From positions 586,007 through 650,006 of the forward strand of contig JAJEKB010001194.1 of NCBI GenBank assembly GCA_022393335.1: a DNA stretch of 64,000 nt. Reading direction: 5' to 3'. A program made the position numbers and the translations under genes. This stretch comes from Macrotrachela quadricornifera. Taxonomy: Eukaryota; Rotifera; Eurotatoria; Philodinida; Philodinidae. How positions within the stretch are numbered: position 1 is the first letter of the stretch; every line of letters starts with the position of its first letter. The notes under the pieces are model-generated. The model did not search any database. It saw nothing but the letters and a program-made list of their open reading frames with translations, and was not told the origin of the DNA. This document shows positions 3,961-7,108 of this stretch, piece by piece.

Positions 3961-4353
3961 CTGAAAATAATAAAAAAATATTTCTTTTTTTTTGTTTTTT
4001 TTATTAAAATTGTAACAATAATTGACGAAACTATACTACTTACTTTTTCTTTCTTTTTTATGATTGGTTAATATTAGTATTGATTTCATCAAATGATTTT
4101 ATTAATAAACTGTTCTGATTGTCGCTAGTATTAAAAATCTATAAAAATCTCCTATTGTGCAGGAATATATGACAACAAGACCAATATGGCGTCGTTGTCT
4201 TTATTGGTTTTCCGGATGTTCAATTTGACGTGTTATTGTTTTTTTTTTAGATTCATCCATTTTTTTCTAATCAAGAGAAATTCAATCAAAATATGTTAGT
4301 ATTTTTATTAGATGAAAATATTTACAATTAGAAATTGTTTTTCTTATTTTTAG
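3961..4353. promoter_or_regulatory. Divergent intergenic region, MED28 / VAMP-A
   Basis: AT-rich DNA with long T runs between the MED28 ATG and the first recognised VAMP exon. It must hold the MED28 promoter and probably the small 5' coding exon of VAMP-A. ATGs at about 4,157 and 4,172 are possible starts, but no donor there is good enough to call. Confidence 0.4.
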
Positions 4354-5303
4354 GTCAGCTTCATTTGAAAATCCACCCCGTGCAACACAATATCAATCAA
4401 CAAAACGATTTGATAATCTTCAAGCTGATGTTAATCAGGTTTGTCTTTGATTCTTTTTGTTTTGTCTTTCAAAATGTTAGTTATCATTTAAAATTAGTAA
4501 AATTATCTATTTCATATAATTAGATTTTCTTTTGCTTTATGTAATGTTGTTTTATGTATGCATATCTCGTACAGGTCGTTGATGTTATGAAAGATAATCT
4601 TGATAAAGTACTTGAACGTGATGCAAAATTAAATACACTTGAAAATCGAGCTGGTAAGTTAAAAAATAAAAAAATATTAAATCGATATATAATAATTAAT
4701 ACTGCTATTTATCTTTATGCTAATTATTTGATTTTTGCTATAAAAAATATTTTTGCAGAAATTTTACAAACGGGTGCATCACAATTTACAACAAATGCTA
4801 GTAAATTAAAACGTAAATATTGGTGGAAAAATCTTAAGGTAAGTGTATTGATTTGTAATTTAATTTAAAAAAAAATATGACTACAGAAGAAGAGAAGATA
4901 AGTAATGCGAGAATTTTTGTTATTCAGACGAATTAATGTATGCATCGCAAATTTTTTCTCATACAACAAAACGTTTAAGACGTAAAATGTTTTATGAAAA
5001 TATGAAGGTAGATTTTTATGAATGCTATAGCTGCTCATTGTTAATTCAAATATAAAAGATTTGAAAATAATATTTAATACTTATTTAGATGTGGGTTATC
5101 TTGATTATTGTCATTGTAAGTAATTAATAATAATTAATTATTTTATATAAATATAATTTTATTTAGATCGTTTTAATAATTGTTATTGTTGGTAAGAAAA
5201 TAAAAACAAAATAAATATAATGAATTTATTTTAAAATTATTTTTGATATTTAGTTGCTGTTACTCAATCGGTTAAAAGCAATCAAAGCAATAGTGGAAAA
5301 TAA
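4354..5303 (+). CDS. VAMP: Synaptobrevin/VAMP R-SNARE, first tandem locus (VAMP-A)
   Basis: Exons recognised: 4354-4438, 4575-4653, then either 4759-4838 or 4928-5007, then 5089-5115, 5167-5191 and 5254-5303. They encode an R-SNARE: the motif starts at [18 protein letters not shown], has the zero-layer Arg in [10 protein letters not shown], and ends with [12 protein letters not shown] before the membrane anchor. The anchor [17 protein letters not shown] is split over two micro-exons of 27 and 25 nt. A short luminal tail ends in SNQSNSGK. R-SNAREs pair with syntaxin and SNAP-25 to fuse vesicles. The first recognised exon begins in phase 2, so a small upstream exon with the ATG is missing from this call. 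The alternative SNARE exon is described separately. Confidence 0.85.
4759..5007 (+). other. Mutually exclusive exon pair in VAMP-A
   Basis: Exon 4a (4759-4838) and exon 4b (4928-5007) are both exactly 80 nt. Both begin after a phase-1 junction and end in phase 0 at a GT donor, and both encode the C-terminal half of the SNARE motif plus the juxtamembrane segment. Exon 4a reads E.LQTGASQF...[12 protein letters not shown], the canonical form. Exon 4b reads [10 protein letters not shown]...[12 protein letters not shown], with the WW membrane-anchor pair replaced by FY. Including both would shift the frame, so only one can be used at a time. An 89-nt intron separates them. Confidence 0.75.
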
Positions 5304-5903
5304 ATTGAAAAATAGTAAGAAAATATAAATGGTCTTTTTTCTTTCTATATTAGATAAATAATCTTTCATTTTATTTTTATTTAGAATTTTTCTATTAAGG
5401 ACACTATTTTATAGTTGTGTATACTGCATGTTACGGTCTAATTAATGTATGCTTATTTTATTTATCTTCATTCCTTGAGCAACAAAACAAACTATCCATG
5501 TTTGTCTGTTACTTTTTTCTATTTCATTTTGTTTTTCTTCTTCTTTTTGTTTGTTTGATTCTATGCTTTAAAAAAAAACATTCTTCTTTCTCTATATATC
5601 TTTTATTCACATTCATTGAAATGATCTTATCTTTTATTTATTTATGCCATTTTACTTGTCTATCGTACACACAGAAATACACTTTTATGTTTTGAATTTT
5701 GTGCAAGAGTAAATCTATTTACAAGAGATAATATTGATTTTCATTATTCCATCTGCATATGTTGTCTCTTTTTTTTTTATTAAGAAATCATTTCTTTTTT
5801 AGATTTTTATATTATTATTCTATTAAATTTAATTTAATTATAATATGTAAATATTCAATATTAGTTTGGAAATTGAATGTTTTTGATTTTATTTTTCTTA
5901 TAG

Positions 5904-6792
5904 GACAACTAATGGTAGTGGTGTTCCACCAGCTGCTGGTGGTGGCGGCTCCAAACGTCTTGCTCAACAACAGGCACAAGTCGATGAAGTTGTTGATATA
6001 ATGCGACAAAATGTTGATAAAGTATTAGAACGTGATAAAAATTTGTCACTTCTTGATGATCGAGCTGGTAAATTTTTTCAATAAGTTATTTCTTCAGAAA
6101 GAAAAAAATATATATATGTAAATTTTTAAGATAAATTACAACATAATGCAGCTCAATTTGAACAGCATGCAGGCAAATTAAAACGGAAATATTGGTGGAA
6201 AAATATGAAGGTAAGAAAGCTTCTCAGACTTTGACTTGTTTATGGTAGAAAGATATATAAAAAAAAAATTTCATATACGGATTAGATGATGATTATAATG
6301 GGAGTGGTGGGCACTATTTTTGCCATTGTGGTGATAGGTAAAAATTCTCGTATTGTGGTCTTCCTTTTATTTATTGTGTTATTCAATATTCGTCCAATTG
6401 CATGTTTATCTACTGCTTTTATGATTTAGCATGAGATAATGTGTAAAGTTTGAAATGAAAATATTTTTATTATTATTTGTTTAGCATGGATTGTTTCGAA
6501 AGTTAAAGCAGTGACACCTGTTCTTCCATCCGGTGACGCAACAACAGCTATTCCATCTGTGAATAGTGCATTACCAAAAGTATCTGGTGGTTCAATGGCT
6601 ATCCCAAGTGGAAATAAACCAGCATCAAGACATCGTGGATCTAGTCGTAAGAAGATAAAATCCACGACACTAGCTCCTATTACAAGTTCAGCAGTACCAT
6701 CAGATGATGATGAACCAGCATCATCAAATGGAGAAGATGCAACAAAAGCTGCTATAAAACGAGCTATTCGTGCAATTCTCAATAGGCAATGA
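5904..6792 (+). CDS. VAMP: Synaptobrevin/VAMP R-SNARE, second tandem locus (VAMP-B)
   Basis: Exons 5904-6067, 6131-6210, 6286-6337 and 6485-6792. A Gly/Pro-rich N-terminus ([16 protein letters not shown]) leads into a canonical R-SNARE motif: [19 protein letters not shown], zero-layer Arg in [23 protein letters not shown], then [13 protein letters not shown] single 52-nt exon gives the anchor [17 protein letters not shown]. Unusually, the last exon adds a tail of about 100 residues on the luminal/extracellular side, rich in Ser, Pro and Lys with an acidic DDDE patch and a basic C-terminus. The first exon starts in phase 2, like VAMP-A, so the ATG exon is upstream. It could be a private exon or shared with VAMP-A, which would make this one gene with alternative 3' halves. 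Confidence 0.83.
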
Positions 6793-7108
6793 TTATTTTT
6801 AAAAAAAACAGAAAAAGATCTAAATCAATTTAAGATCACATTTTCTTTTTGTCATTCCGTTATTATATTGACCCTCTTACATTTATTTACTATTCTCTTT
6901 TTCTCTCTATTTTTTCCTTCCATGTTGTTTGTTTTGTTGTTTTTCTATTGTTCGTGCAACAAAAATTAATATTTACTTATTTCAACGCATTATATTTTTA
7001 GTGACTCATACTTTTCAATATTATGTAACTATATTTCTCTTGTCTTTTTATTCTTCATTATATATATATATATATATAAACATTTATAATGGCAATATTA
7101 ATAAAATT

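Follow-up and report, generated by a model that had tools for sequence, protein, structure and literature searches.

The window that we analysed, a stretch of 64,000 nucleotides of Macrotrachela quadricornifera DNA, lies on contig C785 of a 450-Mb assembly and contains two synaptobrevin genes in tandem, gene 1 followed by gene 2. Gene 1 has two consecutive versions of its fourth exon, designated 4a and 4b, and judged by its sequence the second of these is a genuine alternative SNARE half. Our preferred explanation, which we consider probable, is that 4b is an old alternative exon 4 of this synaptobrevin that is used instead of 4a, so that the two exons would form a mutually exclusive pair.

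Both genes are encoded on the plus strand, gene 1 at about 4251-5303 and gene 2 at about 5803-6792, the latter with a single version of exon 4 at 6131-6210. The best named protein matches to a query with isoform b of gene 1 come from Adineta and Rotaria. In gene 1, exon 2 (4354..4438, 85 nt) follows an intron at 4295-4353 that splits the start codon as AT|G, and exon 3 (4575..4653, 79 nt) encodes the N-terminal half of the SNARE motif with the sequence LERD and ends on the first position of a codon. It is followed by exon 4a (4759..4838) with the canonical C-terminal SNARE half and a strong donor, AAG|GTAAGT, and by exon 4b (4928..5007) with the alternative C-terminal half and a weak donor, AAG|GTAGAT. 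Common to both versions, exon 5 (5089..5115, 27 nt) holds the first part of the membrane anchor; exon 6 (5167..5191, 25 nt) holds its second part and exon 7 (5254..5303, 50 nt) the C-terminal tail and the stop codon. Gene 2 carries an additional C-terminal tail of approximately 100 amino acids past the anchor (6485-6792) that gene 1 does not have.

The sequence-only reading had proposed that two consecutive exons of 80 nt at 4759-4838 and 4928-5007 encode alternative C-terminal SNARE halves, and rechecking of the coordinates confirmed both positions and lengths, with CAG before and GT after each exon. It had further described the two as phase-locked such that joint use breaks the frame, and this holds as well: exon 3 joined to either 4a or 4b and continued from exon 5 on gives an open frame of 115 amino acids in both cases, but translation continuing from 4a enters 4b in a frame with an early stop, and joint inclusion therefore terminates two codons into 4b, for a total of 84 amino acids without a membrane anchor. 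If both exons are skipped, the frame shifts, a stop is reached at 79 amino acids and the anchor is again lost. An anchored v-SNARE would thus be obtained by single inclusion only. The arrangement has the features of a mutually exclusive pair, neighbouring homologous exons of equal length and phase whose joint use or joint omission breaks the frame, and usable splice sites on both exons, with the 4b donor near the low end of the reference range. We infer that 4b is used in splicing and that 4a and 4b exclude each other. The early stop of the joint product would also suit a poison exon, whose main task is to be included along with 4a and thereby to turn the transcript off. Such an exon requires no SNARE-like frame, however, and 4b has one, in precisely the phase that is used when 4a is skipped, so that we hold this role to be improbable.

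Splice sites were scored against a reference of 19 hand-collected introns, for which the leave-one-out donor scores ranged from 4.0 to 11.6. The two acceptors are nearly equal, with 7.6 for 4b and 7.4 for 4a, whereas the donors differ clearly, with 5.3 for 4b versus 11.3 for 4a. Of the reference donors, only two score below that of 4b, whereas in the window as a whole 6.0% of the GT dinucleotides score equally well or better. A strong default exon 4a next to a weak, regulated exon 4b would be the natural reading of these scores, the rival reading being a donor that weakens on a dying exon. Pairing of intron segments, considered as a device for the splice choice, gave only AT-rich, imperfect candidate arms, and an Rfam scan of the window returned zero matches.

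The match of 4b to the synaptobrevin family is in exact register. Against the Pfam family PF00957 (Synaptobrevin), the complete proteins reach 103.4 bits for isoform a and 92.8 bits for isoform b, both above the family cut-off of 26.4. Scored as single exons, 4a and 4b align to the identical profile columns, 40-67, with 30.1 bits for the former and 19.6 bits for the latter (E 7.9e-4 over 24,736 Pfam models); note that 4b on its own falls under the 26.4 bits that apply to whole proteins. The 4b exon of the other allele reaches 21.2 bits on the same profile. For a residue-by-column test we used 134 proteins from the protein searches that yielded 124 comparable segments, 68 of them distinct; some of these proteins had been found by queries with isoform b, which introduces a slight bias toward b. 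In 4b, 21 of 27 residues occur at their respective column in the 68 distinct segments. The background of 22,982 stop-free 80-mers of the window shows a mean of 7.5 matching residues with a standard deviation of 2.2, and only three of these 80-mers reach at least 21 of 27, namely 4a, exon 4 of gene 2 and 4b itself. Among 20,000 shuffles of 4b the maximum was 19 residues and none attained 21. With the protein P0017 omitted from the set, 4b retains 20 matches versus a shuffle maximum of 16, and with six b-like rows omitted it retains 16 versus a maximum of 15. The mean in-register BLOSUM62 score of 4b is 45.0, compared to -18.2 for the shuffles (standard deviation 8.7, maximum 19.0). The outcome is less clear with a simpler profile, by which 4b ranks 4th among the 22,982 80-mers and 3rd among the 66 that have AG and GT ends.

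One might suspect that a stretch of just 27 codons is open by chance in intron sequence rich in A and T, and a genome-wide Pfam search at E <= 0.001 produced 28 matches that do not include 4b. The profile match in exact register and the number of residues at their columns, which exceeds every shuffled version, nevertheless lead us to reject chance as an explanation with next to no probability. The same three lines of evidence, Pfam columns, residue-by-column test and shuffles, bear out the earlier proposal of an alternative C-terminal SNARE half; 4b represents such a half of an R-SNARE and not a random frame. A concentration of the conservation on the heptad layers of 4b did not attain significance (P 0.08). 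Among solved structures the 4b peptide of the window allele found no match; that of the other allele gave two insignificant ones, to VAMP8 at E 1.1 and to the yeast synaptobrevin homolog 1 at E 0.52.

Although similar in register, the two versions are far apart in sequence, as 4a and 4b share only 7 of 27 residues and differ in the remaining 20. The zero-layer arginine is provided by the LERD motif of exon 3, and the heptad layers are present, with 4b in SNARE heptad register. At the positions that we take to be layers +4 to +8, 4b has L, S, F, T and L versus L, A, F, A and L in 4a. The serine and threonine of 4b are rare at these places in the 124 homologous segments, with serine in four at +5, and with serine in five and threonine in none at +7. 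While 4b retains basic residues, its juxtamembrane region has Phe-Tyr instead of Trp-Trp. The tryptophan pair is found in 118 of the 124 segments, and a single one is devoid of tryptophan at either place; it is a common but not a strictly defining feature of synaptobrevins, and it is absent from 4b. In addition, the lysine that comes next after this pair is replaced by glutamate in 4b, a residue seen there in four of the 124 segments. For VAMP2, a review describes Trp89 and Trp90 as necessary against premature assembly and states that alanine at these positions raises spontaneous fusion (PMC9816800). By analogy, the Phe-Tyr of 4b leads to the prediction that this version would shift the balance between spontaneous and triggered fusion.

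The degree of divergence also bears on the age of 4b. At the nucleotide level 4a and 4b agree in 37 of 81 bases, versus 72 of 81 for 4a and the 4a-type exon of its paralogue on contig C252, and 4b should therefore be either old or fast-evolving. A recent duplication of 4a was rejected on the grounds of the same 37/81 identity. If 4b arose as a tandem copy of 4a, it would predate the split from the C252 paralogue or else would have evolved fast. In a neutral simulation that started from 4a and proceeded to 37/81 identity, the reading frame and both splice dinucleotides survived in 0.4% of the runs before indels were considered; survival without any indel was about 2e-4 under an assumed rate of 0.1 indels per substitution. 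As neutral survival is this rare even before indels, 4b was likely under constraint for most of its history. Non-synonymous and synonymous differences separate 4a from 4b in nearly the same proportion (pN 0.54, pS 0.57), as is expected under saturation and under relaxed selection alike, and being saturated these values add nothing further on constraint.

The introns that flank 4a and 4b show no similarity that would be a trace of tandem duplication (P 0.47, 0.81 and 0.20). As an alternative to duplication of 4a, the exon may have been captured from a different R-SNARE gene, an origin that would be compatible with exclusive use of the two exons. With 4a, 4b has 7 of 27 residues in common, and other R-SNAREs are no more distant from it: 4b shares 9 residues with gene 2, 9 with the paralogue on C580, and 11 each with the genes on C2188 and C4772 and with P0017. 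The C2188 and C4772 sequences, however, are as near to 4a (11 and 12 of 27 residues) as they are to 4b, their corresponding stretch runs on from the first SNARE half with no intron in between, and no donor copy came up when the 4b peptide was searched against the genome. Capture thus appears unlikely, though by no means far-fetched. We note that C2188 and C4772 represent a separate R-SNARE gene with TTKQLRRKYWWKN that is intronless at the 3/4 boundary. C580 and C581 carry a third, strongly diverged synaptobrevin paralogue of the gene-1 type that has the same exon phases and adjoins stretches reading N.

The paralogous pair on C252 and C253 has an intron of 56 nt without a 4b exon at this place, and a test for remnants against shuffles was negative (P 0.96 for B1 and 0.84 for B2). 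By eye, no 4b was seen in the C581 paralogue either. Four ORFs of the window found no match in bases 1-18000 of C252, and the label 'ohnologue' for this contig is therefore not proven. In the search of the genome, the 4b peptide had a close copy on each of C785 and C786; the only other match, a weak one at E 7.85, lies in the R-SNARE gene on C4772. C786 is 98.1% identical to C785 over positions 4200-6800 and was taken as the allele; with 4b present once on each of these two contigs at that level of identity, a duplicate created by the assembly was rejected.

The main rival of mutually exclusive use is that 4b was used for a long time but has recently died in this lineage, too recently for its decay to show. 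In each of the two alleles, 4b has its frame and splice dinucleotides preserved. The alleles differ in 2 of its 80 bases, with one synonymous change and one non-synonymous change from isoleucine to asparagine, and in 1 of 346 bases in the remaining coding exons of gene 1 (Fisher P 0.09 versus 4b). In the three introns adjoining 4a and 4b, 7 of 275 bases are changed, in all seven introns of gene 1 11 of 583, and in the intron at 4439-4574 none of 136. Allelic change in 4b is thus approximately at the intron rate, based on very small numbers. The overall divergence of the alleles is 33 substitutions in 2601 bases, and in the absence of selection frame, length and splice dinucleotides would survive with a probability of 0.64, 0.39, 0.15 and 0.025 at 0.025, 0.05, 0.1 and 0.2 substitutions per site, respectively. 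As survival only declines from 0.64 to 0.15 between 0.025 and 0.1, a loss of function within the time span of the alleles would be invisible, and the weak donor of 4b and its lack in the paralogous loci would likewise fit an exon that is no longer used. Against this, 4b is intact in both alleles, neutral survival being down to 0.025 once 0.2 substitutions per site are reached, and the allelic evidence consists of two changes, one of them silent. We therefore assign to a recently dead exon an appreciable chance, but one well short of even.

None of the 27 proteins found in a protein search with isoform b carries 4b; 25 of them could be aligned and 15 cover the region of exon 4, where 14 are of the 4a type and the other, P0017, belongs to a different gene. 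A protein search that used the reading frame of 4b alone found nothing, and no 4b isoform of gene 1 was among the best 120 of 179 protein matches. In a tree of rotifer gene-1 proteins, only two of 12 inner branches were well supported; by path length the nearest proteins in it were P0001 of Adineta ricciae and P0002 of Rotaria sp. Silwood2. In searches for DNA of other rotifers, a single weak match was to a bacterial MAG among the GTDB contigs, and viral contigs gave no match.

Returning to mutually exclusive use as the preferred explanation, exon 3 would be joined to either 4a or 4b and then to exon 5, and single inclusion would yield an anchored v-SNARE. Version 4a would presumably be the default, since its donor is strong and that of 4b is weak, and 4b would be picked in a certain cell type or condition with the aid of a splicing factor. 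Products of double inclusion or of double skipping would be cleared by nonsense-mediated decay or remain as dead products. The 4b protein would keep the anchor and the N-terminal zippering, with an altered last zippering step and an altered coupling to the membrane in the juxtamembrane region. In our best reading the pair would work like exons 5a and 5b of SNAP-25 or like syntaxin-3A and 3B, but in an R-SNARE. It is possible, and we propose it tentatively, that the pair is a functional exclusive switch in which the C-terminal SNARE half with its Trp-Trp clamp is traded for a Phe-Tyr version on the same anchor, such that one locus would provide two v-SNAREs of different fusion behavior, and that this switch predates the split of the C252/C253 paralogues.

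The sequence-only reading had also claimed that no VAMP switch of this kind is described. This stands insofar as none, and no exclusive exon pair in any synaptobrevin, was met in open-licence literature represented mostly by titles and the beginnings of abstracts, but it needs to be qualified by related switches in SNAP-25 and syntaxin-3 and by other splice changes in VAMP7, VAMP1 and n-syb. Q-SNAREs, namely SNAP-25 (PMC2581893) and syntaxin-3 (PMC11476516), do have exclusive switching of exons within a SNARE half, and SNAP-25 exon 5 and syntaxin 3A/3B are the closest known switches in kind. Like the proposed pair of 4a and 4b, exons 5a and 5b of SNAP-25 are described as a tandem duplicated, mutually exclusive pair in a neuronal SNARE gene (PMC2581893). 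SNAP-25, however, is a vertebrate Q-SNARE for which the switch is proven by transcripts and mouse mutants (PMC2581893), whereas the putative rotifer pair resides in an R-SNARE; unlike SNAP-25, it would swap the C-terminal SNARE half along with the juxtamembrane region, in versions that differ at 20 of 27 residues. Syntaxin 3A/3B, again a Q-SNARE, is reported to swap exons 9-10 including the transmembrane part (PMC11476516), whereas the rotifer R-SNARE would swap one exon and has the anchor in common.

Among R-SNAREs, VAMP7b, produced by skipping of SYBL1 exon 6, resembles 4b in being a splice form with a changed C-terminal SNARE half, but as outlined in the source it arises by a skip with a frameshift and has an unrelated tail in place of SNARE half and anchor (PMC3123573), whereas 4b is another SNARE half in frame. 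Variant J of Drosophila n-syb (PMC6025963) and the C-terminal variants of VAMP1 (PMC3123573) are further examples of alternative splicing in synaptobrevin-type genes as is proposed for the rotifer gene, but the changes described lie at the C-terminus, in VAMP1 at its extreme end, and do not concern exclusive exons for a SNARE half. If an exclusive switch does exist in a synaptobrevin, it would be a natural counterpart of laboratory mutants, with the same anchor and N-terminal half but other final turns of zippering and no tryptophan pair, and it would offer a ready means to test what the region of a v-SNARE next to the membrane contributes to setting release.

Finally, the two tandem genes are similar at their 5' ends. 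In both, the start codon is split as AT|G by a short intron (4295-4353 and 5847-5903), and this split is also kept in the paralogous pair on C252/C253, which has the same layout. By eye, a poly-T stretch with AG is located upstream of each 5' exon (4237-4251 and 5790-5803) and is kept in the paralogues, and no obvious donor was seen upstream of these sites in gene 1 or gene 2. They may be candidate spliced-leader acceptors, and the tandem synaptobrevin pair may therefore be an operon.
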